A stretch of 64,000 nucleotides of DNA. Source: Mixta gaviniae. Lineage in GTDB: Bacteria; Pseudomonadota; Gammaproteobacteria; Enterobacterales; Enterobacteriaceae. Made by a program: the position numbers and the translations under genes. Where the stretch lies: NCBI RefSeq assembly GCF_002953195.1, contig NZ_CP026377.1, positions 4,030,001 to 4,094,000 on the forward strand, in the 5' to 3' direction. The notes beneath the pieces were generated by a model. The model made no database searches, was not told the origin of the DNA, and saw only the letters and a list, made by a program, of their open reading frames with translations. Shown here piece by piece: positions 9,551 through 48,639 of this stretch. Each line of letters begins with the position of its first letter. Position 1 is the stretch's first letter.

Positions 9551-9558
9551 CTGCCGGA

Positions 9559-28369: not shown

Positions 28370-28429
28370 ACTTACTCCTTATAGATTTATGAGTGCGGAT
28401 ATAGCAATATCCACACCCTTAATAATTAG

Positions 28430-28975: not shown

Positions 28976-29127
28976 ATTCCTTTTTTCTCCCTATTTTTAC
29001 CGTGAAAATAACAGCTTTAGTACGACTTACTATTCCGTCACATTGTAACAGACTGTAAAACCCTGCCGTATTGTATAATGAAAGTCAATGATGAGGTATA
29101 CCAAATGGCTGGGCGTAAAAAGGAAGC

Positions 29128-30170
29128 TCACTTCACTTTAATTATATCACTTAGCTTAGTCGTGAAGGCGGGGGAAAGCCTTTCTCTGCGCATCTTCCAG
29201 CCCATAGATGCATCTTTAATACCTTGCCCTGCAAACCAAACAGAGCCTTTGCCTGAATGGTTAATGCTGTCTATTAATGTCATCAGCTCTTCGCTGTTAC
29301 GATGAGGCTGAAAGTCATCAAAAAGGGTCAATTGAGATACGGCAGCGCTTCGGAAATCAGTGAGCATCACGCCAGCACGATGATAACGGTGCCCTGGTAC
29401 AAATATCGTATCAAATGCCTTTATAGCCGCGTTAATGATATCCCGTGAATCCTGAGCGGGTACAGCAAGCTCTGTTACCGCCTGATTCTTATAAAACACC
29501 TCATTTTCTGAGAAAGGGCTGGTACTGATGAAAACTGCTACCCGTTTACAAAATTGATGCTCTGCACGGAGTTTTTCTGCTGCACGTTCAGCATGAGCGC
29601 AAATGGCCTGATGCAGGCTGACTTCGTCCGACGGTTTTTCTCCAAAAGATCGGGAGCATATGATTTGTTCTTTTGGGGCAGTAAATTCTTCTAAACCGAG
29701 GCAAGGAATACCGTTCAGCTCTCTGACCGTGCGCTCAACAACTACTGAGAACTGTTTACGAATGAATGAAGGCGACAGCTCAGCCAGCTGAAGTGCATTG
29801 TTAATGCCCATAAACTGTAATTTTTTACCCAGCCGCCGTCCTATACCCCAGACCTCCTCAACTGGTACTAAAGCCATTAACTTACGCTGACGCTGTCTGT
29901 CACTGAGATCTACCACACCTCGCGTTGCGGGCCAGCGCTTACTTGCATACTGAGCCAGTTTGGCGAGCGTTTTTGTAGGGCCTATTCCCACTCCCACAGT
30001 CAGATGTGTTCTTCGCTTAATCTGATCACGTATCTGATGGCCAAACACCTCAAGCGATAACAGATTACGCATACCCGTAAGATCACAAAAAGCTTCATCG
30101 ATACTGTAAATTTCCACACGCGGAGTCAGTAACTGCAAAATAGTCATCACTCTGTCTGACATATCAGCAT
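29128..30170 (-). pseudogene. umuC: umuC, 3' part (split by the 15.2-kb island)
   Basis: This part encodes the Y-family polymerase from the palm onwards: MSDRVMTILQLLTPRVEIYSIDEAF (catalytic SIDE motif), then HhH, little-finger and C-terminal domains (KMRRERLSPAFTTKLSDI). About 77 N-terminal residues are missing, and the frame is open only to about 30170, where unrelated sequence begins. The missing piece is at 45414-45641. Joined, the two give about 424 codons, the normal UmuC length, so this was one gene before insertion. Confidence 0.93.
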
Positions 30171-30171
30171 T

Positions 30172-30186
30172 TATGTGGAATACAAT
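30172..30186 (+). repeat. Left terminal inverted repeat of the inserted island
   Basis: TATGTGGAATACAAT starts one base inside the umuC junction. It matches TAAATGGAATGCAAC at the right end (45391-45405, inverted) at 11 of 15 positions. Core-type recombinase binding site is the likely role. Confidence 0.5.
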
Positions 30187-30211
30187 TTCAACAGCTTAAT
30201 TAGTAACCGAC

Positions 30212-31495
30212 TCAAAGCACGCGCGCTTTAGGTATGTCAGACCAGCGCGTGGTCCAAGCAGGGCTTAGCATTTCACGTTTCATTTTCCATTCGGTATTAA
30301 TGCCCTGGCCCGCAAACCATACATTTCCCATTCCGGACTGGTTGATATCATCCAGTACCTTCATCAGCTGTGCGCTATTGGCCCGCGGCTGGTTATCTTC
30401 AAACAGATTGAGCTGGCTTACACCGTTTGGAGTGAAGTTATCAAGCATGATACCTGCTTTCATGTACCTTCGACCCTCAAGCCAGATACGGTCAAGTGAT
30501 CGCATCGCAGATTCAATAATGTCACGCGTGTCCTGTGTTGGCAGCGTCAGTTTCTCACCAGCGCTGTTCCCGTAAAAAACCTCACCGTTTGCGTGTGGCG
30601 ACGTCCGGATAAACACACCGATGTTGCGACAGTACTGACGTTCCCCGCGCAGTTTTTCCGCTGCGCGCGCAGCGTACTGACACAGCGCCTGCTGCATAGC
30701 GACTTTTGAGGTAATTCGCTCGCCGAAGCTGCGGCTACAGACAATCTGCTGTTTTGCCGGTGGCAGCTCTTCGAGCGGAATACATGATTCACCGTTCAGC
30801 TCGCGTACGGTGCGCTCCAGCACCACGGAAAAGTTATCGCGAATGAACTTCGGACGCGCGCGTGATAGCTGCAGAGCAGTTTCGATGCCCATAAGGTTGA
30901 GTCGTTTACCGATACGCCGTCCCACGCCCCATATTTCCTCAACGGGCTGGTTAGCCAGCAGGGTTTCAGTACGTTTCGGATTACCTGGCGTAAGCGCCAG
31001 TACGCCGCGAAACTGCTTCCACTCCTTGCCCGCCCACTGGGCCGATTTTGCCAGTGTTTTGGTCGGCCCCATGCCGATACCGACGGTGAGACCCGTTGTG
31101 GTAAAGACATGCGCACGCAGGCGACGGCCAAAAGTTTCGAAGTTCTCACAGCCGTCAATACCGGTGAGATCCAGAAACATCTCATCAATGCTGTACTGCT
31201 CGACGCGTGGCGTTATCTCTTCAAGCGCGGTCATTACTCTCTGGCTGAGGCTGTGATAAAGCGCGTAATTGGAGCTGAACACGTGCACCTTTTCCGGATA
31301 ATCCTGTGTTTTTACCTCAAACCATGGCGCACCCATTTTGATGCCAAGCGCTTTTGCGCCAGCGGAGCGTGCAATGACGCATCCGTCGTTGTTGCTGAGC
31401 ACTAGCACAGGTCTGCCACGCAGGTCCGGGCGGAACAGCGTCTCGCAGCTGGCATAGAATGAATTAACGTCAGCCAGGCCGAACATGGACATCAT
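30212..31495 (-). CDS. umuC: UmuC, error-prone DNA polymerase V catalytic subunit (intact copy)
   Basis: Full-length Y-family translesion polymerase of 427 residues. Catalytic motifs are LADVNSFYASCETLFRP (first Asp) and VEQYSIDEMFLDLTG (SIDE), followed by thumb, little-finger and C-terminal regions. With UmuD' it bypasses DNA damage during the SOS response. It lies 32 bp downstream of umuD. The start may be the first Met at 31495 or MFGLADVNS three codons later. It belongs to the inserted island, ends about 40 bp from the island's left end, and may replace the umuC that the insertion destroyed. Confidence 0.93.
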   Translation of the reverse strand: MMSMFGLADVNSFYASCETLFRPDLRGRPVLVLSNNDGCVIARSAGAKALGIKMGAPWFEVKTQDYPEKVHVFSSNYALYHSLSQRVMTALEEITPRVEQYSIDEMFLDLTGIDGCENFETFGRRLRAHVFTTTGLTVGIGMGPTKTLAKSAQWAGKEWKQFRGVLALTPGNPKRTETLLANQPVEEIWGVGRRIGKRLNLMGIETALQLSRARPKFIRDNFSVVLERTVRELNGESCIPLEELPPAKQQIVCSRSFGERITSKVAMQQALCQYAARAAEKLRGERQYCRNIGVFIRTSPHANGEVFYGNSAGEKLTLPTQDTRDIIESAMRSLDRIWLEGRRYMKAGIMLDNFTPNGVSQLNLFEDNQPRANSAQLMKVLDDINQSGMGNVWFAGQGINTEWKMKREMLSPAWTTRWSDIPKARVL

Positions 31496-31527
31496 GATCT
31501 CCGCCGTGTGTAGATAACCCGCACATA

Positions 31528-31968
31528 TCAGTTTCTCCGGCGCGGAGTGTGCACGAAGTGCGCCACTACGCCGAAAATTTCCAGGGTATCCGGGTCTGGG
31601 ATAATAACAGGATAGGCGGGATTCATCGGCTGCAATACCGGCCCTTTCTGGGTAATAAGAAGGCGCTTGACCGTAAATTCGCCGTACAGTACAGCGATAA
31701 CCACGTCGCCGTGCTCAGGCCTGAGTGCCCGATCGACTATCAGCAGATCGCCGTCGTAAAGTCCTATATCCTGCATGCTGTTGCCCTGTGCGCGCAGGAA
31801 AAAGGTGCTTGCCCTGTGGGCTATTAGATATTCGTTTAAGTCGAGTTCCTGCTCCGCATAGTCCTGGCAAGGAGAGGGAAAACCGCAGGGTACGCGTTCC
31901 AGGAAAAGGGGCCTGTAGCTGGGCGGCGGATTATCCGCCGGGTGCATCAACTCAAAGGCGTGAAACAT
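31528..31968 (-). CDS. umuD: UmuD, SOS mutagenesis protein (self-cleaving)
   Basis: A 146-residue S24-type protein. The cleavage site is Cys-Gly in VPCGFPSPCQDY, the nucleophile Ser is in GNSMQDIGLYDGDLL, and the catalytic Lys is in EFTVKRLL. RecA-stimulated cleavage would yield UmuD', the Pol V partner. The ATG at 31968 is chosen because a LexA box lies 20-40 bp upstream; the longer frame would run through that operator. Confidence 0.93.
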   Translation of the reverse strand: MFHAFELMHPADNPPPSYRPLFLERVPCGFPSPCQDYAEQELDLNEYLIAHRASTFFLRAQGNSMQDIGLYDGDLLIVDRALRPEHGDVVIAVLYGEFTVKRLLITQKGPVLQPMNPAYPVIIPDPDTLEIFGVVAHFVHTPRRRN

Positions 31969-31988
31969 AGCAAAAATCCCTGTCAAAA

Positions 31989-32008
31989 TGCTGTACGTAT
32001 TTACAGTA
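31989..32008 (-). promoter_or_regulatory. LexA (SOS) box of the intact umuDC
   Basis: TGCTGTACGTATTTACAGTA fits the LexA consensus CTGT-N8-ACAG, 21 bases before the umuD start. This operon should be repressed by LexA and induced by DNA damage. Confidence 0.85.
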
Positions 32009-32161
32009 GTATTGTCTGACTTTACGGACGAAGCAAGAAGCGTGGGGCGACACAAATATCATTAAAATAATGGACTATTGATTTATTTGAATTTATAGCG
32101 GAACGACAGCTCGTAAAACAAGCAGCTATCAGGACTTTCTGTGTCAGGGCATGTTAAAAAT

Positions 32162-33061
32162 TTATTTTGATTCAGGAAAGATCTTACTTAGTCTGTTCAG
32201 TACTTCACTTATGCCCCTGCTGACAATCCGATCCTCCCGCATCACTGTCCCCAGAGTCCGGTGAAGCGATGGCGTTACTGAGTAAAGACTGAGACCCTGC
32301 CTTTCTTCATGACTTGCAACGGACATACGGGGAACGATGCTGTAACCCAGGCCGGAACGAACCATCCTTTTAATGGCTTCAATACTGCCAAGCTCCATAA
32401 CCGGGCTGACAGTATGCCCTGCATCGCTGAACCATCCGTCAATCAGATCGCGTGTGGCACTTCCGGGTTCAAATACAATCAGCGGCAGTGGCAAAAGGGT
32501 ATCAGGAGACAGCGGTTTTGCACTCTGCTCCGAGGTGTCCTTTTCCATGATTACAACAAACTCATCCGTACCCAGCGGGCTGACACTCAGGCATTTACCG
32601 GCTGCCGGCAGCGTTACCAGACCAATATCTATACGGTTTTCCTCCACTCCCCGTACAATATCTGAAGTATTGCCTGTGCGTACATCCACCTTCAGCAGGG
32701 GATGGGTCTGTCGAAGTTGCTGCAGTAAGTGAGGTAGCAGATGGATACAGGCTGTTGCGCCTGTGCCGACAGTAACGGTGCCGGTTATTTCGTCTGAATG
32801 CAGGGAAACCGCTTCAACCGCTCCGCTTACCACCGCATCAATTTTCATGCAGTGTTCAGCGAGAGTCAAACCGGCAGTCGTTGGTCTTACTCCCCGGCTG
32901 GTTCGCTCAATAAGCCTGACCTTAAGCGTCTGCTCCAGCTGTCTTATCTGCAGGCTCACTGCCGGTTGCGACAAGCCAAGTACTTCTGCCGCCCCCGAGA
33001 AACTGCCCCGGCTGATGACCAGCCTGAAGGTAGCCAGATGATCGAGGTTCAGTGTTGCCAT
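32162..33061 (-). CDS. LysR-family transcriptional regulator
   Basis: A 299-residue LysR-type regulator. The N-terminal winged helix (FSGAAEVLGLSQPAVSLQIRQLEQTL) is followed by a periplasmic-binding-protein-like sensor domain (about 90-295). It is divergent from the GNAT/MFS pair, with a 98-bp shared intergenic region. By the usual LysR rule it probably activates that pair in response to a small ligand. The ligand is unknown; the surrounding ars genes make an organoarsenical or amino-acid analogue a reasonable guess. Confidence 0.85.
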   Translation of the reverse strand: MATLNLDHLATFRLVISRGSFSGAAEVLGLSQPAVSLQIRQLEQTLKVRLIERTSRGVRPTTAGLTLAEHCMKIDAVVSGAVEAVSLHSDEITGTVTVGTGATACIHLLPHLLQQLRQTHPLLKVDVRTGNTSDIVRGVEENRIDIGLVTLPAAGKCLSVSPLGTDEFVVIMEKDTSEQSAKPLSPDTLLPLPLIVFEPGSATRDLIDGWFSDAGHTVSPVMELGSIEAIKRMVRSGLGYSIVPRMSVASHEERQGLSLYSVTPSLHRTLGTVMREDRIVSRGISEVLNRLSKIFPESK

Positions 33062-33159
33062 GCCAAAGTTTTCCTCATAACGCTGATAAGCCCTGCTGCC
33101 TGTCTGAAATGATTCATCCGGGTTAGTCTCTGTTTCTGATCTGAAAGGGAGCTGTACTG

Positions 33160-33687
33160 ATGGAAATAACCGAAGCAGATGAACGACATATTCCCGCTAT
33201 ACAACAGATTTATGCTTATCACGTATTACACGGCACCGCCACTTTTGAAACCGAACCGCCGGGTGAGGCTGAAATGGCAGCCCGGCTGAAAAAGGTACAT
33301 GCAGCAGGACTGCCCTGGTTGGTGGCGGTTGACGGAGGAATTGTTCGAGGATACTGCTATTTGTCTCTATACCGGGAACGGTGCGCCTATCGCTTTACTC
33401 TGGAAGACTCTGTATATGTTGATGCCACGTATCAGGGGCGGGGCATTGGAAAAATGCTGCTATCCCGTGCAGTAGGATGGGCAGAAGCCCGTGGTTTTCG
33501 GCAACTTGTAGCGGTGGTGGGGAACAGTGAAAATACTGCCTCCCTTGCTCTTCACCGCGCTGCAGGCTTCAGCATCACTGGCACCCTCAGGTCTGTAGGA
33601 TTCAAGCATGGGCGCTGGCTCGATACGGTTATCCTGCAGCGTACGCTCGGGCATGGCGACGCTACGCTTCCGGAAAGTACAGAATGA
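33160..33687 (+). CDS. GNAT N-acetyltransferase, phosphinothricin/arsinothricin type (Pat/ArsN1-like)
   Basis: A 175-residue acetyltransferase of the Pat/Bar group. The acetyl-CoA pyrophosphate loop is QGRGIGKMLL (R/Q-x-x-G-x-G/A), preceded by VYVDATY. The start MEITEADERHIPAIQQIYAYHV and the end GRWLDTVILQRTL are family hallmarks. Enzymes of this group acetylate phosphinothricin, methionine sulfoximine or, in the ArsN1 branch found in ars operons, the arsenical antibiotic arsinothricin. Location beside an MFS exporter and arsR-arsH favours ArsN1, but sequence alone cannot fix the substrate. Its stop overlaps the MFS start. Confidence 0.8.
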   Translation: MEITEADERHIPAIQQIYAYHVLHGTATFETEPPGEAEMAARLKKVHAAGLPWLVAVDGGIVRGYCYLSLYRERCAYRFTLEDSVYVDATYQGRGIGKMLLSRAVGWAEARGFRQLVAVVGNSENTASLALHRAAGFSITGTLRSVGFKHGRWLDTVILQRTLGHGDATLPESTE

Positions 33688-34916
33688 CACAAGGATATCT
33701 GACAGGCCGCACCATTTTCTGCATCGGCATGACGCAGCTTATCAACTGGGGTATTACGTTCTACATGCCGGGTGTCTTCGGAGCCGCCATCATGGCGGAA
33801 ACAGGCTGGTCTTCCGGTGAGACATTCTCCGGCCTGAGCGTTGCCATGCTCGTTATGGGGCTGGTTTCACCGCTTATCGGTCCCGTAATGGCCCGTACCG
33901 GTGGACGCACCCTGATGATGGCGGGAACTTTGGCTATAACCATCGGGTGTTTTCTGATGGCGTTTACCTATTCAACATTAGCGTGGGATGCCGTCTGGAT
34001 CCTGACAGGCGCGGGCATGCGGCTTGCTCTGTATGACGCCGCTTTTGCCATGCTTGTGGAAACCGCAGGCGCAGAGGCTCGCAAGGCAATCTCTCTGGTC
34101 ACCCTGCTGGGCGGTCTCGCGTCGGCCGCTTTCTGGCCTGCTGGCGCAGCGCTTCTTCACGTCACCGACTGGCGGCATGCCGTCATCATTTATGGCTGTG
34201 CGGGCCTGCTGAGCCTGTTTTTTTTAACTGCCGTTCCGGCAGGCAGTCGGGTAAAACTTCCCGTAACAGGGCGATCCGGCCATTCGGCTGACGCAACAGC
34301 AACATCAGAGGACACAAAAGCACTCATCAGCGGCCTGTGGTATGCCACTCTGATAGCGTTGATAAGCTTTGTCTCCACCGGCGTGTCCACACATTTTCCC
34401 CGGATACTGGCCTCTTATGGCGTGCCTGCTCTGGCTGGCATGCTGTGGGGAGTGGGGCAGTTAGGTGCCCGTCTGCTGGGTGTAGTTTCAGGTGCACGAA
34501 TCTCCGCGATACGCCTGAACCTTATAACCGGTATCCTGCTTCCCCTCTGTTTTCTGACCGGCCTTGCAGGCAGCATTACTCCTGTGGCTACAGCCTTTTT
34601 CGTTCTGGGCTATGGGGCCGTAAACGGACTGAATACGATCGTGAAGGCCGTACTTCCTCTTGTGCTGTTTGATCCGCAGCAGTACGCCCGCAAAACAGGA
34701 ATACTGATGTCGCCGGCATTTTTTCTCGCGGCACTGGCTCCGTCTGCGTATGCCATACTGCTGGAGCGCTACGGTATACCCGGCACGCTGCTTTTTTCCT
34801 TCATCCTGACCCTGATCATTACGGCGATTTCTGTGGTCCTCTGGCAGCGTCATTCTGGCTCTGTTGTGCAGAACCGGGACCATGGAGCATCTACCCTTCA
34901 CGAAAAAAATGTTTGA
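33684..34916 (+). CDS. MFS transporter linked to the GNAT enzyme
   Basis: A 410-residue major facilitator protein with about twelve membrane helices. The loop between helices 2 and 3 (GPVMARTGGRTLMMAG) fits the MFS signature. It does not look like ArsB or ArsJ. Its ATG overlaps the acetyltransferase stop by 4 bp, so the two are coupled. It may export the acetylated product or the parent toxin. The mid-loop (about 190-220) is cytoplasmic and charged. The substrate is unknown. Confidence 0.82.
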   Translation: MTQGYLTGRTIFCIGMTQLINWGITFYMPGVFGAAIMAETGWSSGETFSGLSVAMLVMGLVSPLIGPVMARTGGRTLMMAGTLAITIGCFLMAFTYSTLAWDAVWILTGAGMRLALYDAAFAMLVETAGAEARKAISLVTLLGGLASAAFWPAGAALLHVTDWRHAVIIYGCAGLLSLFFLTAVPAGSRVKLPVTGRSGHSADATATSEDTKALISGLWYATLIALISFVSTGVSTHFPRILASYGVPALAGMLWGVGQLGARLLGVVSGARISAIRLNLITGILLPLCFLTGLAGSITPVATAFFVLGYGAVNGLNTIVKAVLPLVLFDPQQYARKTGILMSPAFFLAALAPSAYAILLERYGIPGTLLFSFILTLIITAISVVLWQRHSGSVVQNRDHGASTLHEKNV

Positions 34917-34964
34917 CGGCTTCCATATTTCTATTATTCTGGAAATATAGTTAAAGGAGGCCGC

Positions 34965-35300
34965 ATGGATTTACACACCGCAGCAAACGCACTTCGAGAA
35001 CTGGGCCACCCGACACGTCTCCGCATATACCGGGAGCTGGTCAGGGCTGGTCATGAAGGCCTGCCGGTTGGCGAACTGCAGAAGCACCTTGAGATTCCTG
35101 CCTCCACGCTCAGCCATCATCTTTCAGCGCTGATGTCCGCTGGACTCATAAGCCAGGAACGGCAGAGTCGTACCTTGTTCTGCAGACCTTGCTATGCGCA
35201 GCTTGAGCAGCTGATGGCTTTTCTCACTGAAGAGTGCTGCGCCGGTGGCAGTAGCTGCAGCCTGTCTACCGAGATTTCCCATAAAGAGACTCCATTGTGA
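34965..35300 (+). CDS. arsR: ArsR-family repressor, C-terminal cysteine type
   Basis: A 111-residue ArsR/SmtB winged-helix repressor (DNA-recognition helix around [16 protein letters not shown]). It lacks the CVC motif of classical ArsR. Instead it has Cys91, Cys92 and Cys98 ([10 protein letters not shown]) near the C-terminus, the spacing of the AfArsR-type As(III) site. It has AAAGGAGG just upstream of its ATG and overlaps arsH by 4 bp. It probably controls arsH and perhaps the GNAT/MFS genes. Confidence 0.88.
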
Positions 35301-36019
35301 ATAACGTGAATGATGCCCTGAACAATATCGATCTGACACTCCTGGATACGCCCCTTTCGGAAGAGAAATTAAAGGCCGAAGAGGTGGCGCATCCGCCCCG
35401 CATACTGATGCTCTACGGTTCGCTTCGGGAGCGCTCTTACAGCCGACTCACCACGGAAGAGGCCGCACGGCTGCTGACGGCCATGGGCGCGGAGGTGAAG
35501 TTATTCAATCCGTCCGGCCTGCCGCTGCCGGATGATGTACCTGAGACGCATCCGAAGGTCGCAGAGCTGCGCCAGCTAGTGCTCTGGTCTGAAGGGATGG
35601 TCTGGTGCTCTCCTGAGCGTCACGGTGCCATGACCGGCATCATGAAGACGCAGATTGACTGGATACCGCTGACGTCCGGGGCGGTCCGGCCCTCGCAGGG
35701 GAAAACCCTTGCTGTCATGCAGGTCAGCGGAGGCTCACAGTCTTTCAACGCCGTAAACCAGATGCGTATTCTTGGGCGCTGGATGCGGATGATCACTATC
35801 CCGAACCAGTCATCCGTTGCAAAAGCCTGGGCCGAGTTTGATGAGGACGGCCGCATGAAGCCTTCTCCGTATTATGACCGCATAGTGGACGTCATGGAGG
35901 AACTGATGAAGTTCACCCTGCTGACGCGCGGTCGTAGTGGTTATCTCACCGACCGCTACAGCGAAAGGAAGGAGAGTGCTGCGCAGCTCTCTGAGCGGGT
36001 AAACCAGCGCAGCATATAA
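35297..36019 (+). CDS. arsH: ArsH, NADPH-dependent FMN oxidoreductase
   Basis: A 240-residue flavodoxin-like protein. The FMN-binding loop [14 protein letters not shown] (about 40-52) and the segment [17 protein letters not shown] are ArsH hallmarks. ArsH oxidises trivalent organoarsenicals such as methylarsenite to less toxic pentavalent forms. It is coupled to the upstream arsR. It converges on arsC, separated by a two-way terminator. Confidence 0.95.
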
Positions 36020-36044
36020 AAAAGCCGGCATCTGCCGGCTTTTT
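36018..36044. terminator. Bidirectional terminator between arsH and arsC
   Basis: GCCGGCA-TC-TGCCGGC is flanked by A6 on the left and T5 on the right, so it works on both strands between the convergent arsH and arsC genes. Confidence 0.9.
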
Positions 36045-36075
36045 CACATTTTCCCTGTCACAGCCAAGGGAAACA

Positions 36076-36504
36076 TCAGTGGCTGACGCGATTCCCTTGC
36101 TCATCAATGACTGCTTCGCCGTCCTCTTTGGTAAACGCTCCCTTCTGCGGGTCCGGCAGTATGCCCAGAACCACTTCGGAGGGGCGGCAGAGCTTCGTTC
36201 CCAGCGGCGTCACCACCACCGGACGATTAATGAGGATCGGATGAGCCAGCATCGCATCGAGCAGTTCTTCATCGCTGAACCGGTCTTCAGCCAGGCCGAG
36301 CTGCTCGTAGGGATCGGTATTTTTACGCAGCAGGGCACGCACGCTAATGTCCATGTCCGTAATCAGCTTTTTCAGCTCGTCGCGCGACGGCGGTGTTTCC
36401 AGATACAGAATCACCGTGGGCTCGGTGCCGCTGTTGCGGATAAGCGCCAGGGTATTGCGGGACGTCCCGCAGGCCGGATTGTGATAAATGGTAATGTCAG
36501 TCAT
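36076..36504 (-). CDS. arsC: ArsC, glutaredoxin-dependent arsenate reductase
   Basis: A 142-residue arsenate reductase of the plasmid R773 type. The catalytic Cys12 is in HNPACGTSR, and the anion-binding Arg residues fall in LINRPVVV and TKLCRPSE. It reduces arsenate to arsenite with glutathione and glutaredoxin, giving the substrate for ArsB. The ATG at 36504 is chosen over an upstream start because the fold begins MTDITIYHNP. It is the last gene of arsRBC. Confidence 0.96.
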   Translation of the reverse strand: MTDITIYHNPACGTSRNTLALIRNSGTEPTVILYLETPPSRDELKKLITDMDISVRALLRKNTDPYEQLGLAEDRFSDEELLDAMLAHPILINRPVVVTPLGTKLCRPSEVVLGILPDPQKGAFTKEDGEAVIDEQGNRVSH

Positions 36505-36553
36505 GAGCGTTACTCCATAAAGGCGCTGCACAGGCACAGCTCCGGGGTTAAGG

Positions 36554-37837: not shown

Positions 37838-37933
37838 ACCCTCTCCTTCTTAATTATAACTGCCCGTTGAAGCGGGCTGCTAACTGTACCCTGTAAATAT
37901 ATGCGTTTAATCGAATGTGTTTAGATAAAATTT

Positions 37934-38287
37934 TTACATGCAGACAGCTTTGCCGTTGGTGGTTGCGTTATCACGCTCAGCCTGCTGACTGAGATGAAGA
38001 ATTTCATCCCGCTGACACAGATATGCCTGCTCAATGACCGCTGCTGCCCACGCAGGCATGTGTGGCGATAACCGGTAATGGATCCACTTGCCGTCGCGCC
38101 TGTCGATAAGCAGTCCACTCTCTCTGAGCAGGGCCAGGTGCCGCGATATTTTTGGCTGTGTTTCTTTCAGGATAGATACAAGCTCGCAGACGCAAAGCTC
38201 CCCTTTTTCGCGCAACAACAGCACCAGGCTGAGCCGGGTTTCGTCAGAAAGATTCTTAAAAAGTTGCAGGGGCAGCAGTGACGGCAT
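37934..38287 (-). CDS. arsR: ArsR, arsenite-responsive repressor (CVC type)
   Basis: A 117-residue ArsR of the E. coli/R773 type. The As(III) site is ELCVCEL (C-V-C) at the start of the recognition region, followed by QPKISRHLALLRESGLL. It represses arsRBC until arsenite or antimonite binds. The ATG at 38287 (MPSLLPLQLF) is chosen because GGAG lies 7 bases upstream; the longer frame has no support. It is first in the operon, followed by arsB after about 100 bp. Confidence 0.95.
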   Translation of the reverse strand: MPSLLPLQLFKNLSDETRLSLVLLLREKGELCVCELVSILKETQPKISRHLALLRESGLLIDRRDGKWIHYRLSPHMPAWAAAVIEQAYLCQRDEILHLSQQAERDNATTNGKAVCM

Positions 38288-38549
38288 AATTTCTCCTTCG
38301 TGGCGGACAGCAACAAGTCTCGTCTGCTGCAGACGAAAGGTCAACTTTATATTTATAAATTCATATATGTTTTGACGTGCTTACAGGCTTTTCAGTACAG
38401 CTTAATGAGGGAATAGCGGTTAAACGATATCACACAGATTTTAACGGCAGCACACTTTCAGCTGCCTTAATGGTCGGGCATGACGAAGTAACATCACAAA
38501 AAAAGCCTGTTTCTTTAGTGAACCGTTCTACTTATGGCAGAAAGCAGCA

Positions 38550-39008
38550 TCAGTAAGAGTGGCTTCCGGCCAGATGACCTGCAGTGATAACCGGCACGAT
38601 ATCCTCAGGCTCTTCTGCCTGCTCCAGTTCGCGCAGAATACCGCAGTCCCGTGTTGCCCGGTTGGCATTGCAGTGGCTGTGGAGCTCAAATAGTTGTTTT
38701 TCCAGCATATTTAGTTCACGAATACGGGCCTGAACGTGGTTCAGATGTTCATTTATCAGGGCATTAACCGTACCGCAGTCTGCGTCTGGCTGGCTGCGCG
38801 CCTGCAGCAACACCCGGATTTCTTCATGGGTCATATCGAGCGCCCGGCAGCGCCGGATAAACATAAGCCTTTCGAGATGTGCGCTATCGTAATGGCGGTA
38901 GTTATTAGTCTGGTCCCGCAATGCGGCCTGCAGAAGCCCCTCTCGCTCATAATAACGTACCGTCTCTACAGGACATCCCGCCTGGCGGGCCAGTTCACCA
39001 ATTTTCAT
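38550..39008 (-). CDS. MerR-family metal regulator (CadR/PbrR-like)
   Basis: A 152-residue MerR-type activator. The N-terminal winged helix (MKIGELARQAGCPVETVRYYEREGLL) is followed by a dimer helix and metal-site cysteines in DADCGTV (about residue 76), HSHCNAN and RDCGIL. The Cys pattern and the CNANRATRDCGIL loop match CadR/PbrR regulators of Cd(II)/Pb(II). It is divergent from the ATPase gene and should twist the 19-bp-spaced promoter at 39027-39057. A His/Ser tail (AGHLAGSHSY) may add ligands. Confidence 0.88.
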   Translation of the reverse strand: MKIGELARQAGCPVETVRYYEREGLLQAALRDQTNNYRHYDSAHLERLMFIRRCRALDMTHEEIRVLLQARSQPDADCGTVNALINEHLNHVQARIRELNMLEKQLFELHSHCNANRATRDCGILRELEQAEEPEDIVPVITAGHLAGSHSY

Positions 39009-39026
39009 ATCACACCTCTTCTGAGC

Positions 39027-39057
39027 TTGACCCTGTAGTTACATCAGGGTCTTTAAT
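39027..39057 (+). promoter_or_regulatory. MerR-type promoter of the metal ATPase gene
   Basis: -35 TTGACC (39027-39032) and -10 TTTAAT (39052-39057) are separated by 19 bases, the long spacer typical of MerR-controlled promoters. The spacer carries the inverted arms ACCCTG (39030-39035) and CAGGGT (39045-39050), the operator for the divergent CadR/PbrR-like protein. Confidence 0.85.
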
Positions 39058-39087
39058 GCCAGTATACGTTATGAACGGGATAAAAAA

Positions 39088-41718
39088 ATGAGTGACTGCT
39101 GCAGTAATAAAAAATGTGGATCAGCCGCAACCGGAGAGGAGGCGTCTGTTAAAAATACCGCCACTGCCCCGACTGAGGCTTCAGGGAAAATGCCACCAAA
39201 AACGACTCAGACCACACCGGCCTGTTGCAGCACCGGGAGCTGCTGCTCAACGGACGGCCTGAGCCAGATGTCCGAACCGGTTGCAGAGCTTCCCCGCAAC
39301 GATGACGTTCAGACGCGTCTGCGCATCATGCAGATGGACTGCCCGACGGAGGAGACGCTCCTCCGAAAAAAACTGGCAAAATTACCTGCCGTCAGCAATC
39401 TTGAATTCAATCTGATACAGAGGGTGCTTACCGTGACCCATACACCGCAGGCGCTGGAACCGGTTCTGCAGGCGGTGCGCTCGCTGGGTTTTGACCCGGA
39501 ACCGATTGATAAAGCAATGCAGCCTGAAGGCAGCTGCTGCTCAGGCCGTGAGGCGGAAAATACCGGCGGTTCCTGCTGCTCGCCTGCCCCTGTCACATTC
39601 GGTGAGCTGCAGACGCAGCAGGTGACCGCTGACGGGGTGCGTACCAGTATCAGGATCATGCAGATGGACTGCCCGGTTGAAGAGGGCATGATCCGTAAAA
39701 AGCTGGACGGCATGTCAGCCGTCAAGGAACTGGATTTCAATCTTATGCAGCGTGTACTGACGGTGGTTCACGCACCGGATACGCTGGAGCCGGTTCTGGC
39801 CGCCATTCGTTCTCTGGGCTTTGAACCTGAACTTCCTGACAGTAATGGCCGGCACGCGGTCACTGAGGAAAAGAAAAAACACTGGTGGCCGCTCGCGCTT
39901 GCCGGTGTGGCGGCAATCGCCGCCGAAGCCATGCACTGGGCGGGCATGCCGGAATGGCTGGAAGCGGCTCTTGCTCTGGCTGCCGTTGCGGCCTGTGGCC
40001 TGTCCACGTACAAAAAAGGCTGGATTGCTCTTCGGAACGGCAACCTGAATATCAACGCCCTGATGAGTATTGCCGTCACCGGGGCGCTGGCGCTCGGACA
40101 GTGGCCTGAAGCCGCCATGGTAATGGTGCTGTTCACGATTGCGGAACTGATTGAAGCGAAATCTCTTGATCGCGCCCGCAATGCCATCGGCTCTCTGATG
40201 AAGCTGACGCCTGAAACGGCCACGGTTCAGCAACCGGACGGCTCCTGGAAAGAAACTGAGGCCAGGTCTGTATCCCTTAACAGCGTGGTCAGGGTAAAAC
40301 CGGGCGAGCGTATCGCTCTCGACGGCACGGTGGTCCGGGGCAGGACCGCCATTAATCAGGCACCTATTACCGGCGAAAGTCTGCCGGTGGATAAAGGGGA
40401 AGGTGACCCGGTCTTCGCCGGGACGGTCAACGGCTCCGGTGGCTTTGAGTACCGTGTAACGGCCGCTGCCGGAAATACCACGCTGGCGCGTATCATTCAT
40501 GCCGTGGAGGAAGCGCAGGGGGCAAAAGCCCCTACGCAGCGCTTTGTTGATCGCTTTGCACAAATTTATACCCCTGTGGTGTTTGCTATTGCCGTCGCAG
40601 TTGCCGTTCTCCCACCGCTGATTGCAGGTGAAAGCTGGCAGGAGTGGATTTACAAGGCGCTGGTGATGCTGGTTATCGCCTGCCCCTGTGCGCTGGTCAT
40701 TTCCACGCCAGTGACCATTGTCAGTGGCCTGACGGCAGCAGCCCGCCGGGGGATATTGATCAAGGGCGGCGTTTATCTTGAAGAAGGCCGAAAGCTGAAG
40801 TGGCTGGCGCTCGACAAGACCGGCACCCTGACGCACGGTAAGCCGGTACAGACGGATGCGATTATCTATACCGGGGTGGCAGAAGATGAGGGGCGCAGTC
40901 TGGCTGTGAGCCTGGCAGGTTACTCCGATCATCCGGTTTCGCAGGCTGTATCGGCGGCATCAGATGGCATTCAGCGTTATGAAGTGGAAAACTTTGAGGC
41001 TCTGCCAGGCCGCGGCGTGCGCGGCGTCATCAACGGTCAAACCTACAGTCTGGGCAATCTGAGGCTGGCTGAAGAAACGGTGCGCTGTCCGGAAGCGGTC
41101 AGGGCTGCACTAACGGAACTGGAGACCGGGGGTAAAACGGTCATCATGCTCTGTGACACTCATCAGGTGCTAGGGCTGTTTGCGGTGGCTGATACGGTGA
41201 AGGAAAGCAGCCGCGAGGCGATAAGTCAGTTGCATAGTCTGGGTGTTAAAACGCTCATGCTGACCGGAGACAATGCGCACACTGCGCAGGCCATTGCCGG
41301 TCAGGTTGGTATCGATGAGGCGCGGGGGGATCAACTGCCGGAAGATAAACTGCGTGCTGTAGAAACATTTACGGCGCAGGGCACGACCGGCATGGTGGGC
41401 GACGGCATCAATGATGCACCGGCGCTGGCCCGCGCCGATATCGGCTTTGCCATGGGTGCAATGGGCACGGATACCGCCATCGAGACTGCCGATGTGGCCC
41501 TCATGGATGATGATTTGCGTAAAATTCCGGCTTTTGTCCGACTCTCCCGGCAGACGTATAACATTCTGGTTCAGAATATCGTTATGGCTATTGGGATCAA
41601 GGCAGTGTTCCTGGCCCTGACCATTGCAGGTATGGGGACCATGTGGATGGCCGTATTCGCGGATGTGGGGGCAAGCCTGCTTGTCGTGGCAAACGGTCTG
41701 CGCCTGTTGCGTAAGTAA
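39088..41718 (+). CDS. Cd/Zn/Pb-exporting P-type ATPase (CadA/PbrA-like)
   Basis: P1B-type ATPase of 876 residues. It has a Cys-rich N-terminus (SDCCSNKKCGS, CCSTGSCCST) and two heavy-metal-associated domains with the unusual metal loop MDCPTEE (about 88) and MDCPVEE (about 193). Eight helices include the CPC site (VIACPCALVIS). Next come DKTGTLTHG, the His-Pro motif SDHPVSQAV and GDGINDAPALARAD. It exports Cd(II), Zn(II) and/or Pb(II). The DCPxEE loops put it with CadA/PbrA of Pseudomonas-type clusters rather than E. coli ZntA. Confidence 0.9.
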   Translation: MSDCCSNKKCGSAATGEEASVKNTATAPTEASGKMPPKTTQTTPACCSTGSCCSTDGLSQMSEPVAELPRNDDVQTRLRIMQMDCPTEETLLRKKLAKLPAVSNLEFNLIQRVLTVTHTPQALEPVLQAVRSLGFDPEPIDKAMQPEGSCCSGREAENTGGSCCSPAPVTFGELQTQQVTADGVRTSIRIMQMDCPVEEGMIRKKLDGMSAVKELDFNLMQRVLTVVHAPDTLEPVLAAIRSLGFEPELPDSNGRHAVTEEKKKHWWPLALAGVAAIAAEAMHWAGMPEWLEAALALAAVAACGLSTYKKGWIALRNGNLNINALMSIAVTGALALGQWPEAAMVMVLFTIAELIEAKSLDRARNAIGSLMKLTPETATVQQPDGSWKETEARSVSLNSVVRVKPGERIALDGTVVRGRTAINQAPITGESLPVDKGEGDPVFAGTVNGSGGFEYRVTAAAGNTTLARIIHAVEEAQGAKAPTQRFVDRFAQIYTPVVFAIAVAVAVLPPLIAGESWQEWIYKALVMLVIACPCALVISTPVTIVSGLTAAARRGILIKGGVYLEEGRKLKWLALDKTGTLTHGKPVQTDAIIYTGVAEDEGRSLAVSLAGYSDHPVSQAVSAASDGIQRYEVENFEALPGRGVRGVINGQTYSLGNLRLAEETVRCPEAVRAALTELETGGKTVIMLCDTHQVLGLFAVADTVKESSREAISQLHSLGVKTLMLTGDNAHTAQAIAGQVGIDEARGDQLPEDKLRAVETFTAQGTTGMVGDGINDAPALARADIGFAMGAMGTDTAIETADVALMDDDLRKIPAFVRLSRQTYNILVQNIVMAIGIKAVFLALTIAGMGTMWMAVFADVGASLLVVANGLRLLRK

Positions 41719-41795
41719 CCTGTCTGGCTGCTCTTCCGGTAAAGACAGGCACCTGAAAATAGCCGCTAATCTGCACTCCGATAAAGGAAGAGAGT

Positions 41796-42137
41796 ATGAA
41801 ACCGCGTAACATGATTTTATTGCTGATGCTCGCAGTCGTGTTTCCGGCAACGGCTGCGCAGGCAGTACACGGAAACCATGCCGGAATGTCACCGTCTTCT
41901 GAGGCCTATATGGACGGCATGAATAATATGCACGAAGGAATGATAAAGGCCGTACAGGACCCGGATGCAGACAGGGCATTTGCCAGGAGCATGATTGAAC
42001 ATCACAAAGGAGCCATTGCCATGGCCGAAACGGAACTCCGTTATGGTAAATCACCGGCAATGCGGAAGATGGCTGAAAGCATTATCAGCGCCTAGAAAGA
42101 AGAAATACGGCAGATGGAAGTATGGCTCAGTAAATAA
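41796..42137 (+). pseudogene. DUF305 metal-binding protein, cut by an amber codon
   Basis: The frame starts with a signal peptide (MKPRNMILLLMLAVVFPATAAQA) and DUF305 motifs GMNNMHEGMIKAV and MIEHHKGAIAMAETEL. It stops at TAG (42093-42095) after ESIISA. The same frame then continues KEEIRQMEVWLSK to TAA at 42135-42137, matching the end of the paralogue at 22389 (AQKGEIEQMNKWLGSQK). One CAG-to-TAG change explains it. The 99-residue product may still bind metal, or the gene may be read through in a suppressor strain. Confidence 0.85.
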
Positions 42138-42159
42138 GCTCTTTTTTATTACTTTCGTT

Positions 42160-42187
42160 ACGGCGTAGCAGCTCCTTACTACGCCGT
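42160..42187. terminator. Hairpin between the DUF305 gene and the recombinase genes
   Basis: ACGGCGTAG (42160-42168) pairs with CTACGCCGT (42179-42187). It lies between convergent genes. No T-run follows directly on the plus strand; a T-rich run occurs on the minus side about 10 bases away. Terminator role is likely but not certain. Confidence 0.5.
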
Positions 42188-42224
42188 CCTTCACACACAT
42201 AAAGTGAATTCCGGTCAGGGCCTG

Positions 42225-44354
42225 CTACAGAATACGTGGGATATCTGTTTTCATAAGAGCGGCGTTCAGTTTTTCCACATCACCTTCTATTACTTCTTTC
42301 TCATCGGGCGTCAGTGGCACTTCTTCAAGATAATGTTTTACCGATGCCTTACTTTCCAGTAACAGTCCTCTTGCACTTCTCTTTGGCAGATTAAAATCAC
42401 ATCCGATGCATGCCATACGGTGCGGGCAACTGCTCCAGAAGGGATTAGTACAGAAAGAGTCGCCCAGATCATAATATGTCGCAGGTCCCGTGAGGCTGGT
42501 TGCTGCGGGGTCATGATCAATCAGCACGCTTATCATGTGCGCTACCCGGTCAGCTTTAACAAAAGAGGCAGCAAGCTGCGTCGGGCGTATTCGAATATAA
42601 TGCATGGTGGATTGCGGCGAAGAGTGTCCTGACCACTGCATCAGCTCGTATAAAGACATGCCCTGAGGAACACTGGCCAGGGCAGTTACGGCCGATGCGC
42701 GTCCCCTGTGGCTGGTAATGGGGCCCCGGCTGTCTTCCTCAGGCACTCCTGCCCGGGCACAGAGAACCGGAATAACGGTGCGGTTTATTATGTCTCTTCC
42801 CACCGGTTTGCCCCGGTACTGAAACAGAAAACGGACTTTTTCACCGGTGCGTTCATCCGTCAGAGCTGCCTGTTCTTCTGGTCGTTCTGCCAGCCAGATA
42901 TCGACATACTTTTTCACCACTGCAGAAACCGGCTTAACAAAGGCTTTAGATGTCTTGCCGGCCGGCACGTTCAGATAGCAAAGAGTCCCGGCAGGAATGG
43001 TACTGCCGTCGTCCCGGTTAATATCTTCCGATTGTGGAATGATGCAGCCAGCGGTCAGGCGCATCAGCTCATTCTGACGCAGCCCTGCATGCGTCCAGAT
43101 GACTGCCATAGCCTGCAGCATAGAGAGGGGGTAGTGAATTTCACTGAGCAAATCTTCCTGACGCAGATTCAGGCTTGCCCAGACCAGTTTCAGCCATACA
43201 GGATCATCAATAACACGCGGATTGACGCCCTGACGAAAGAGCGGTGTATCAGGTGTGGAGAGATGGCGGGCCGGACTGAATTTCAGACGTCCCCATTCCC
43301 AGAGTTCGTAGTCAAACATAAAACGACGAACGGCATACACGAAACCGGCACGGGAATTTGGCAGCATGGGCTCTCCGGAACGTGGAGAGCGGCGCACCCC
43401 ACGTTCTGTACCCAGTGAAAGTTCATCAACCTTCATTCTTCCGATTGCAGCAATGAAGCTGGCGCAGATCTCCATTGTCCAGTCGGACGGCGAGCGAATT
43501 TCCGGATGCTCGCGGGCGAGCCACAGACCGCAGCGGAGGATAAAGCTGTACTGGCTCTCTCTGGACCGGGGCCGAAGCACCGACGTTTCTCTCCAGCGCC
43601 GGCACCACGTTACCCACTCTGTGGCAATATTTTCTGTGGGTTTTTCGTGCCACTCACGGTAATTGCGCATACGTACGGCACTTTTGAGGATGCCCATTGC
43701 GGCCAGCGCATGTGAAACTCTGCCTACTGTTCGTGCGATTCCCCGATCGTGATAATTCTGCGCGCGCCACAGGAGTTCAGTTGTGAAGCTTTCAAGCTCA
43801 GGATTATTGTTCATCATCATCAGTATGCCCAGCAGGGCTGACAGGGCGTTTTTCTGGTTCTGTCGTTTGTATCCCAGCGAGACAAGCGTATCAGTCAGCC
43901 GGTTGAGTTCCTGAATGAAAATGTCCCGGCCATAGATGGCACAGGCGTACAACGACGGAGCACCATGATGCGGCAGGTCGAACGGTGAGGGAAACGGGCC
44001 AAGATGGAAGGCAAATGCCGCAATAAGGGGCCTGCCGGAACGGTGCTGCAGGCACAACGTCAGCCACTTTTCCGAATCCCACAGCCAGCAGGGTTTCCTT
44101 GTCCGGTGTATTTCCGCCAGCACGACAGGAATGATAATCCTGACGAGTCTGTCACTCGTACCGCTGCGGGCGGCAATATCCTGAAGTGGCCGCAGTAAAG
44201 ATGACAGCGGACCTTGCTTGCTCAAAGCAGAGATACGTTTGTGCCCTGTGCTTAATGCCTCAAGCTCTTCAATGCTTAACACATTATTCAGCTGATAATC
44301 TGAACGCCTGAAGGGGACATAAATTTTATGAATTCCTGTTTCTGCTTTCATCAC
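42225..44354 (-). CDS. Large tyrosine recombinase with C-terminal Cys motif (TnpB-of-Tn554-like)
   Basis: A 709-residue recombinase. The catalytic part (about 400-620) shows Arg in THAGLRQNELMRL, H-x-x-R in TSHRGRASAVTA, and the late His plus the Tyr nucleophile in WSGHSSPQSTMHYIRIRP. After it comes a Cys cluster CTNPFWSSCPHRMACIGCDF (about 650-670), a zinc-ribbon-like feature also found in TnpB of Tn554-type elements. It overlaps the upstream recombinase by 4 bp, so both are made together. It sits at the right end of the island and presumably acts in its insertion and excision. Confidence 0.82.
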   Translation of the reverse strand: MMKAETGIHKIYVPFRRSDYQLNNVLSIEELEALSTGHKRISALSKQGPLSSLLRPLQDIAARSGTSDRLVRIIIPVVLAEIHRTRKPCWLWDSEKWLTLCLQHRSGRPLIAAFAFHLGPFPSPFDLPHHGAPSLYACAIYGRDIFIQELNRLTDTLVSLGYKRQNQKNALSALLGILMMMNNNPELESFTTELLWRAQNYHDRGIARTVGRVSHALAAMGILKSAVRMRNYREWHEKPTENIATEWVTWCRRWRETSVLRPRSRESQYSFILRCGLWLAREHPEIRSPSDWTMEICASFIAAIGRMKVDELSLGTERGVRRSPRSGEPMLPNSRAGFVYAVRRFMFDYELWEWGRLKFSPARHLSTPDTPLFRQGVNPRVIDDPVWLKLVWASLNLRQEDLLSEIHYPLSMLQAMAVIWTHAGLRQNELMRLTAGCIIPQSEDINRDDGSTIPAGTLCYLNVPAGKTSKAFVKPVSAVVKKYVDIWLAERPEEQAALTDERTGEKVRFLFQYRGKPVGRDIINRTVIPVLCARAGVPEEDSRGPITSHRGRASAVTALASVPQGMSLYELMQWSGHSSPQSTMHYIRIRPTQLAASFVKADRVAHMISVLIDHDPAATSLTGPATYYDLGDSFCTNPFWSSCPHRMACIGCDFNLPKRSARGLLLESKASVKHYLEEVPLTPDEKEVIEGDVEKLNAALMKTDIPRIL

Positions 44355-45340
44355 ACGGCTCCCGCCTGAAAGATAAGCCCTGCAATCTTACGGTCGGTTT
44401 CAGCGACGGCAGCAGCCATGCGGGCAGCCATATCCGTTCCCGACAGATGAATATAAATTTGTGTTGTACGTGGGTCCCTGTGCCCTGCATAAGTAGCCAG
44501 TTCATGCAGTTTCCATCCGGCCCGTGCCAGATGCGTCAGCCGGAGGTGACGAAAAGTATGCGTGGTGATGTCTGGCTGATCAGTCTCTGCCGCCCATTTC
44601 CGTACGGTTTTACTCCAGCTCCAGAAAGAGAGAGGAGCGCCGTAATTACGGTCAGAGACGGAACGGAACAAAGCACCGCCTGACCAGCCTTCCAGCCGTA
44701 GCTTTTGAAAATGGTTTGCCAGTACCGGCGCAACGTCGGCGCTATAGCAGACCATTCTTTCCCGTCTGTTTTTCGTCGTTTCTGCCCGGATGCGTATCAG
44801 GCGATGAGCCAGGTCAATGTCCTCAAGCCTCAGAGCCGTCACTTCAGTACGTCGGAGCGCCCCATAATAAGCCAGAGCAAGCATCAGTCGGTCACGCAGA
44901 GGCGCTGCAGAAACGTGTTTCAGGAACCTGAGCCACTCCCCGTCATCGGGAATAACGGGGAGTCGGTTGATACGTGGGATCAGGCCGCGTCCGGTATAAA
45001 TGGCACCAGGCAAACCCGAACGGGGTAACGGGTTGAGACTGCAAATATCCTGATAAACCAGAAAGTCATACCAGAGACGAAGAGCTGAAAGGCGCAACTG
45101 GAGCGTGGCGCTTGCAACGGACGACGGCATATCAGGGAGCTGAGGTCGGATATATCCTGCAATGTCTTCAAAGGAAGCTCTTTCAGGAGCAATGTCGTGT
45201 ATTTCACAGAAGGCAAAAAAATGCGTCAGGGCACTTCGATAGGCTTTAATAGTTGCGCTGGCTCTTCCTAAATTCGAAAGAATTGTAAGCCACTGCTCAG
45301 TCAGCAGAAGAGCAGATGCGGAATGCATGGAAGTGTTCAC
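44351..45340 (-). CDS. Tyrosine recombinase (XerC-like, partner of the 709-residue enzyme)
   Basis: A 329-residue tyrosine recombinase with an N-terminal SAM-like domain (about 10-110). Catalytic residues are Arg in YYGALRRTEVTALR, Lys in ETTKNRRER, H-x-x-R in HTFRHLRLTHLA, and the late His and Tyr in YAGHRDPRTTQIYIHL. All are present. It is first of the two-gene recombinase operon, reading away from the right end of the island, with about 70 bp to that end. Two-recombinase operons resemble tnpAB of Tn554, or part of GInt/RIT-type sets; no third recombinase is visible. Confidence 0.85.
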   Translation of the reverse strand: MNTSMHSASALLLTEQWLTILSNLGRASATIKAYRSALTHFFAFCEIHDIAPERASFEDIAGYIRPQLPDMPSSVASATLQLRLSALRLWYDFLVYQDICSLNPLPRSGLPGAIYTGRGLIPRINRLPVIPDDGEWLRFLKHVSAAPLRDRLMLALAYYGALRRTEVTALRLEDIDLAHRLIRIRAETTKNRRERMVCYSADVAPVLANHFQKLRLEGWSGGALFRSVSDRNYGAPLSFWSWSKTVRKWAAETDQPDITTHTFRHLRLTHLARAGWKLHELATYAGHRDPRTTQIYIHLSGTDMAARMAAAVAETDRKIAGLIFQAGAV

Positions 45341-45390
45341 GGCCTTCCCCTTTCAGTTCATAACAACTGATTAAAGTTTATACCGAAGAT

Positions 45391-45405
45391 GTTGCATTCC
45401 ATTTA
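45391..45405 (-). repeat. Right terminal inverted repeat of the inserted island
   Basis: On the minus strand TAAATGGAATGCAAC lies 6-8 bases inside the umuC junction. It pairs with the left-end repeat at 30172-30186 (11 of 15 identical). Confidence 0.5.
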
Positions 45406-45413
45406 ACTTACTA

Positions 45414-45641
45414 TAAGCTGTAATTACTTGAAAATGCTACAACACCCTTTTTCTCAGCCTCACGACCAACCTTGAACCAGGGATCGCCCATTTTTAACCC
45501 AAGTGATTTTGCTGCTGAGGAACGGGCTATTATGCAGCCATCGTTATTAGACAGCACCACCACAGGTTTGCCACGGAGATCTGGTCTGAAAACTGTCTCG
45601 CAGGAAGCGTAAAATGAGTTAACATCGACTAGGGCGAACAC
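45414..45641 (-). pseudogene. umuC: umuC, 5' part (split by the 15.2-kb island)
   Basis: Residues 1-75 of a UmuC protein: MFALVDVNSFYASCETVFRP (first catalytic Asp) to VVAFSSNYSL. A TAG stop follows at once, created by island sequence. The expected continuation (Y-A-D-M-S-D-R-V-M) is found at 30170 and leftward. The gene starts right after the umuD stop. The product would lack the palm SIDE motif and cannot be a polymerase. Confidence 0.93.
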
Positions 45642-45643
45642 TG

Positions 45644-46159: not shown

Positions 46160-46179
46160 AACTCGCCCCCCTCAAATTA

Positions 46180-46199
46180 TACTGTTTATAAATACAGTA
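46180..46199 (-). promoter_or_regulatory. LexA (SOS) box of the backbone umuD
   Basis: TACTGTTTATAAATACAGTA is a near-perfect LexA operator (CTGT-N8-ACAG with extended symmetry), 21 bases before the umuD start. Confidence 0.9.
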
Positions 46200-48629: not shown

Positions 48630-48639
48630 CCTTATTCCC

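Follow-up and report, generated by a model that had tools for sequence, protein, structure and literature searches.

The umuC gene of the DNA polymerase V (Pol V) operon is an already published hotspot for islands with two integrases, and we describe here one such island, of 15,242 bp, in a 64,000-nucleotide stretch of the Mixta gaviniae genome (NZ_CP026377.1, positions 4,030,001 to 4,094,000; hereafter the window), the contig record of which is a single 4.53-Mb contig. Two-integrase elements in umuC are known from integrative and conjugative elements (ICEs) of Pantoea ananatis, from Erwinia plasmids, and from Klebsiella and Proteus (PMC4458695, PMC5971314, PMC8547460, PMC10654056); the Pantoea and Erwinia islands have been in print since 2015 (PMC4458695) and the tmexCD units since 2021 (PMC8547460). 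The umuDC island of ICEPan, Erwinia plasmids and P. vagans likewise has two XerC/XerD-like recombinases beside a 5′ umuC fragment, lies inside umuC and has spread recently across genera, with SOS-driven dissemination proposed (PMC4458695, PMC5971314). It differs in its cargo and its position (88 in the numbering of that paper), and no carried umuDC was seen there. The nested element in Erwinia sp. HDF1-3R shares its type of cargo (eno, phosphoglycerate mutase, crcB and uspA-like genes), and the long recombinase (IntB) of this Erwinia relative is about 70% identical to that of the window. The tmexCD–toprJ int–int units of Klebsiella, Proteus and Aeromonas, also of about 15 kb and with two integrase genes, sit in umuC-like genes at relatively conserved sites (PMC8547460, PMC10654056, PMC9769766); the likeness is one of description, and their cargo differs, being drug efflux.

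In Pseudomonas, the umuC-like gene that rulB elements cut likewise has recombinase genes behind it and a LexA box upstream; the pWW0 insertion, which shows a GAT repeat and has three recombinase open reading frames (ORFs), lies 123 bp into rulB (PMC4542609). The Mixta island differs in lying after codon 79, in showing no 3-bp repeat and in having two recombinase ORFs, and we rejected assignment to the pWW0 type. A preliminary description of this DNA had compared the island to rulB elements; the comparison holds for the recombinases behind a cut umuC-like gene and fails at the site, which is codon 79/80 and has no GAT repeat. Pseudomonas members of the present recombinase family at codon 79/80 do exist (for example L037, L072 and L076; labels of this form are our locus numbers).

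We put at roughly 75% the probability that the Mixta island represents a widespread family of site-specific islands that two tyrosine recombinases, IntA and IntB, insert at codon 80 of umuC and that are linked to the SOS response, its own lineage also carrying a umuDC that serves as replacement and landing site. Two features of two-recombinase umuC islands were found, namely adjacent recombinases by a 5′ umuC fragment and a conserved site in umuC. The site-specific umuC island in Enterobacterales proposed by the preliminary description is not new, and it is supported by 48 of 54 surveyed ends, an empty site and copies in four umuC genes, all described below. Literature searches on umuC insertion turned up no paper on an element-carried umuDC or on nesting in it, an absence that applies to those searches only. 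The features that define the insertion are as follows.

30170..45411, no strand: whole inserted island, 15,242 bp, both boundaries within the Tyr80 codon of the target umuC (junction letters, empty-site comparison, identity to pC309-p2)
45412..45641, minus strand: 5′ piece of the target (ICE) umuC, through codon 79 and the TA of codon 80 (tblastn, PRK03609, junction letters)
29128..30169, minus strand: 3′ piece of the target umuC, starting with the third base of codon 80 (tblastn, PRK03609, junction letters)
45644..46159, minus strand: target umuD, Peptidase_S24 (domain match)
46180..46199, minus strand: LexA-like box 5′ of the target umuD, 18/20 to the consensus (motif scan)
30171..30185, plus strand: distal inverted repeat TTATGTGGAATACAA (junction letters)
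45392..45406, minus strand: recombinase-side inverted repeat TTAAATGGAATGCAA (junction letters)
44351..45340, minus strand: IntA, tyrosine recombinase of 329 aa and the first gene to follow the cut umuC (ORF, domain, match in the Protein Data Bank (PDB))
42225..44354, minus strand: IntB, 709-aa large tyrosine recombinase (ORF, domain, alignment)

The island lies in a region of ICE transfer genes (TraG_N, TIGR03755, TIGR03756, TraC TIGR03744, TraD TIGR03754, TIGR03749 and TIGR03752 in domain searches), and the gene cut at 30170–45411 is the umuC of a umuDC operon that belongs to this ICE. The two target pieces were searched apart, not joined, and codons are numbered after the intact UmuC that the island itself carries. 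By tblastn, residues 2–79 of that protein matched 45414–45647 and residues 77–425 matched 29131–30180, both on the minus strand, and NCBIfam PRK03609 (UmuC) covered the pieces at model positions 1–76 and 80–422. The 5′ piece stops after codon 79 and the TA of the Tyr80 codon, and the 3′ piece opens with the third base. At the recombinase side the junction is TA/GTAAGTTAAATGGAATGCAAC and at the distal side TTGTATTCCACATAAA/T, with a 1-bp A ambiguity in the boundary; an inverted repeat is held within both ends, and by eye TTATGTGGAATACAA (30171–30185, plus strand) and TTAAATGGAATGCAA (45406–45392, minus strand) are identical at 12 of 15 positions. The preliminary description had placed umuC pieces at 45414–45641 and 29128–30170, the second resuming where the first stops, and both were located and meet at consecutive codons. 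Its junctions at 30171 and 45411 were right to 1 bp by the junction letters and the empty-site comparison, the inverted repeats that it saw just inside them are present though imperfect, and its two overlapping recombinase genes at the right end overlap by 4 bp.

Copies of the island elsewhere separate it from its surroundings. Window positions 30167–45417 are 99.97% identical over 15,251 bp to plasmid pC309-p2 of Enterobacter hormaechei, where the island splits a different umuC, a match beyond chance; the earlier claim that an island has split one umuC is confirmed. In Escherichia sp. ESNIH1 (L062) the match, at 99.95%, ends at 45428 in a third umuC, and Erwinia sp. HDF1-3R has the island at 99.8% in a fourth. 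That four different umuC genes (those of the window, pC309-p2, ESNIH1 and HDF1-3R) hold copies at least 99.8% identical suggests recent movement and is the best evidence for it here. Kluyvera georgiana (L042) and Chimaeribacter arupi (L044) match the window at 99.97–99.98% over 22,124 bp, including the ICE flank to window position 54348, so in these genomes the ICE is shared together with its island; in Superficieibacter electus (L043) the match runs to the contig end.

An uninterrupted umuC, which the preliminary description had suggested looking for, was found for the gene of pC309-p2 and not for the ICE of the window. The pC309-p2 pieces, searched apart, match plasmid pECL_A (NC_014107.1) at 100%, at 48364–49403 and 49408–50060. 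The empty gene reads GAACTT-TA-TGCC without interruption and the occupied one GAACTTTA/GTAAG and CACATAAA/TGCC, with neither a target duplication nor a footprint. In AP022521.1 (L086) the occupant of this same pECL_A gene is another element, which has nickel genes and carries a umuC. Window flanks 45411–46400 and 28300–30166 gave no match among plasmids and no empty site for the ICE of the window; the 5′ flank searched against 99 relatives matched 25 including its own genome, the others weakly (best 88% over 39 bp), again with no empty ICE site.

To survey site choice, we scanned genome contigs with the IntB alignment, a search in which umuC played no part, and obtained 43 loci; a further 14 (the window and 13 hand-picked plasmid loci) were added. 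We found 57 right ends, 54 of them with at least 36 nt of flank. L038 and L039 were left out, as was L030, which had no recombinase in the stretch fetched, L052 and L084 had no readable right end, and L043, L069 and L070 lay too close to a contig end. Recombinase-side ends followed N-Y-x-L codons in 49 of the 54, representing 43 distinct flanks, a count given because several ends share a host allele or record (window, L042 and L044; L029 and L045). The end was in umuC or rulB in 48, from Enterobacterales to Pseudomonas and one Sphingomonadales metagenome-assembled genome, so that other islands with these recombinases do cut at the codon that the preliminary description asked about; the motif filter misjudged L049 and L067 through a wrong reading frame, and both are umuC. 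One further end lies in an ORF of Pseudomonas antarctica (L075, 4089–4484) that we read from its sequence as TonB-receptor-like and that has the same core (GNYAL/TAG), which points to recognition of a sequence rather than of a gene. The recombinase-side end itself is nearly constant across loci, GTAAG or TTAAG. Two distant relatives are arranged differently: in Acetobacter (L039, IntB 42%) the recombinases precede an intact umuDC and have no umuC piece in front of them, and in Klebsiella (L038, IntB 36%) only umuC stretch 4–54 is present, in opposite orientation.

IntA is XerD-like (best PDB match 1a0p, E 8e-12), and its alignment with XerD spans the active site. IntB has a Phage_integrase domain at 405–590, and R425, K466, H548, R551, H576 and Y585, which we take to be the catalytic residues, are invariant in seven sequences; both recombinases look catalytically complete. 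An IntB profile gave no match to PDB sequences up to E 0.1, and no NCBIfam family matched IntB. A search of 198 genomes of the family with IntB matched five, its own included and one weakly at E 4.1e-4, and for the recombinase region there was no near match for E. coli in a collection of 20,395 records. We propose that the IntA–IntB pair recognizes the DNA that codes for F-S-S-N-Y-x-L-Y, a conserved motif of umuC, and that its insertion within the Tyr80 codon is clean and duplicates no target sequence. Judging from the junctions, the umuC site would recombine with a site that the two inverted ends form together, and the circular form would join the ends as TTCCACATAA-AGTAAG-TTAARTGGAA.

The island also lies downstream of a promoter that may control its recombinases. 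A sigma-70-like promoter at 46225–46196 overlaps the LexA-like box of the target umuD, and beyond the cut point IntA follows at 71 bp and IntB at about 1.1 kb, both in line with this promoter; terminator-like sites between promoter and IntA numbered 0, against 2.1 in shuffles. Among 50 CTG-N10-CAG sites in the window, only two, the boxes of the target umuD and of the umuD carried by the island, match at least 13 of 20 positions of the consensus. The target umuD promoter would thus read through into IntA and IntB under LexA control, and DNA damage would probably induce the recombinases. We infer both the mobility of the island and its expression from sequence. SOS-driven expression or dissemination has been proposed earlier for related islands (PMC4458695, PMC4542609).

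Inside its distal end the island holds an intact umuD–umuC pair, absent from the preliminary description.

30212..31495, minus strand: carried umuC, intact, 427 aa, its stop codon 41 bp in from the distal end (domains, tblastn)
31528..31968, minus strand: carried umuD, start as in the identical pC309-p2 copy, the mechanical ORF running to 32055 (annotation, domain, PDB alignment)
31989..32008, minus strand: LexA-like box 5′ of the carried umuD, 16/20 to the consensus (motif scan)

The carried umuC has the IMS, IMS_HHH, IMS_C and DUF4113 domains. An alignment of the carried UmuD with UmuD of E. coli (8gmt, E 2e-37) takes in the VPCGFPSP, GNSM and TVKRL stretches, the first and last of which we take to be the cleavage region and the lysine region; in the last, the chain reads TVAKL. 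This umuDC, probably functional and under SOS control, would replace the Pol V operon that the island breaks.

A carried umuC is present at 10 of the 32 distal ends that were read next to umuC (pC309-p2 being left out as the same element): the window, L027, L029, L030, L031, L032, L054, L057, L060 and L086. It lies at most 65 bp from the end and is oriented as the target, and the cargoes are unrelated. It is broken by IS1 in L029 and by a nested element in L054 and L057, and L086 has no annotated umuD beside it; L036, outside the 32, also has a carried umuC. At least 80% of a query made of the distal end and the end of the carried umuC was held by 19 plasmid records. We placed UmuC C-parts on a tree of 45 rows, 11 carried and 24 target rows among them. 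The carried rows showed 2 label changes against a shuffled mean of 10.0, and the target rows 6; carried UmuC formed two well-supported clades of 8 and 3 rows within a 17-row set that includes 6 target rows, and target UmuC was scattered. This clustering argues that the elements keep a umuC lineage of their own, which arose once or twice, and do not take a copy from every target they enter. Between L031 (umuD 9327–9776) and the window (31528–31968), the carried umuC is about 95% identical and the carried umuD only about 52%, as if umuD had been exchanged beside a conserved umuC.

The carried umuC would offer a fresh insertion site, and further elements may stack inside it. A second element in the carried umuC, at the same codon, was found on three replicons or contigs. 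The carried umuC of Erwinia NZ_CP155072.1 shows 100% identity up to codon 79, where a second recombinase pair (IntB 71%, IntA 69%) begins with the same end motif, and the far side of the nested element joins the outer-target C-part, which is 52% identical to carried UmuC. P. eucrina Russ and LMG 5346 each show on one contig the order target N-part, recombinase 1, carried N-part, recombinase 2, carried C-part and target C-part, with identities of 92% for the carried N-part, 94 and 91% for the carried C-part and 84 and 85% for the target C-part; the nested ends differ between the two strains, which indicates separate entries. Russ has a shortened target N-part next to a distant (38%) recombinase, and there is one stop in its target C-part. 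Duffyella plasmid pEM02 (L027, 4037; L028, 9011) has three recombinase pairs in about 45 kb, and its outer distal and outer recombinase-side ends are flanked by a similar non-umuC stretch, TTTATAAACTGGAAAA. On P. aeruginosa plasmid AR439 (L037, 2976–13902 and 13768–19768) one umuC-like gene is cut near codon 37, where the gap holds recombinase and mercury genes, and at codon 80/81 by the present IntA–IntB family; this gene has two sites and two kinds of element.

It is a tentative reading, slightly short of probable, that the island imports its own target, the replacement umuDC being also the preferred next site, so that islands would accrete into arrays while Pol V is kept. Such an island would combine target-gene restoration with a self-carried attachment site. 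Target-gene restoration is known in other forms for tRNA-targeting elements. Several observations weigh against our interpretation. Five of the 54 recombinase-side ends (L027 copy 2, L028, L065, L068 and L079) lie elsewhere without N-Y-x-L, so that the contrary evidence named in the preliminary description, the recombinase pair inserted into unrelated genes that share no core, is seen in part; the sixth end outside umuC, the TonB-like one, shares the core. Carried umuC is missing at 22 of the 32 distal ends, which means that it is not needed for movement and that the replacement may be incidental cargo, and since the plasmid loci were picked by similarity the share carrying umuDC is not a population frequency. 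The M. gaviniae genome has another intact umuC elsewhere, 58% identical; Pol V would therefore not be lost without the carried copy, the island need not rescue the cell, and any benefit of the carried umuDC would go to the mobile replicon or to the island. In NZ_CP155072.1 the C-part of the carried umuC and the distal end of the first element are lost, which simple nesting does not explain.

There is a considerable chance, if less than an even one, that the carried umuDC is ordinary cargo, umuDC being frequent on plasmids and ICEs as a source of UV tolerance, and that its distal position is an ancestral accident. The 22 distal ends without it and the second genomic umuC fit this alternative, as do the 3,839 plasmid records that match one umuC piece; against it, place and orientation are constant across IntB lineages about 35% apart with unrelated cargo (arsenic and cadmium here, nickel in L086, CBASS-like in L036), and the carried UmuC falls into two separate clades. 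We think it unlikely that the island moves like Tn554 or the strand-biased SE elements, by copy-out that brings along a 6-bp footprint of the site occupied before, and not by conservative excision and integration. Tn554-related elements and SEs likewise have one ordinary and one long tyrosine recombinase (329 and 709 aa here), imperfect inverted ends and no target duplication (PMC3414803, PMC10214605), a likeness by description, and TnpC is absent from some Tn554 relatives too (PMC3414803/PMC10214605). The island differs in that no third gene (Tfp, Srap or TnpC) adjoins the recombinase pair, the next gene being a DUF305 protein on the other strand, and in that no 6-bp footprint was seen: the GTAAG/TTAAG end is nearly constant and the distal end runs straight into the target umuC. 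Least probable by far is that the two umuC pieces are remnants of two genes joined by homologous recombination, for although plasmid umuDC regions are rearranged in some relatives (the Duffyella pEM02 stack, Erwinia HDF1-3R), the codons at which the pieces meet are consecutive, and one and the same gene is empty on pECL_A and occupied on pC309-p2, the two being 100% identical to either side of the site, an argument that extends by analogy to the window's own ICE, for which no empty copy was found among the 99 relatives or the plasmids searched.

Assignment to other known classes was rejected. SEs have the order intA–tfp–intB–srap, whereas IntA and IntB overlap directly here with no donor-flank 6-bp footprint; GInt elements (ginABCD) have three integrases and a small protein, and RIT elements three adjacent tyrosine recombinases, against two in the island; and the score of IntA as an integron integrase is 69.9, far from the cut-off of 265 for that family. 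The island is not itself an ICE or an integrative and mobilizable element: the annotation of the identical pC309-p2 copy shows no relaxase or transfer genes inside it, the transfer genes being those of the surrounding ICE.

From the recombinase-side end the island reads IntA, IntB, DUF305, P-type ATPase, CadR, arsenic genes, major facilitator superfamily (MFS) transporter, GNAT, LysR, umuD and umuC. Cargo names below are taken from the annotation of the identical pC309-p2 copy, with family searches where stated.

32162..33061, minus strand: LysR regulator
33160..34916, plus strand: GNAT acetyltransferase and MFS transporter, the latter ArsK-like, below the family cut-off (also family search)
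34965..36019, plus strand: ArsR-type regulator and ArsH
36076..38344, minus strand: ArsC, arsenic transporter and ArsR-type regulator
38550..39008, minus strand: CadR
39088..42095, plus strand: heavy-metal P-type ATPase and DUF305 protein (also family search)

A study of ars clusters in Pantoea describes a UmuC gene upstream of the clusters and cadR with a P-type ATPase downstream (PMC5360009), and this arrangement is probably the present island, unrecognized. Other umuC-sited relatives carry CBASS-like genes (cyclic-oligonucleotide-based antiphage signalling: nucleotidyltransferase, ThiF, Mov34 and SAVED; L036, 17275–21587), a type II restriction–modification pair (L035, 17249–19930) and nickel resistance genes (L086, 8215–11037). 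Elsewhere in the window, CusA/CusB-like copper–silver efflux genes and a Cu/Ag sensor kinase lie at 12892–21559, about 8–17 kb left of the cut umuC. The ICE gene TIGR03755 is split at 48640–50114 into two adjacent ORFs matching model positions 193–418 and 1–177, and the transfer region may be partly broken.

Islands with metal-resistance, fluoride-tolerance, restriction–modification or CBASS-like cargo enter Pol V genes, which are common on plasmids and ICEs, at one codon. If such islands bring their next landing site with them, this would explain why unrelated cargoes pile up at umuDC on plasmids, and should the recombinases be driven by SOS read-through, mutagenesis and the movement of the cargo would be linked through DNA damage.

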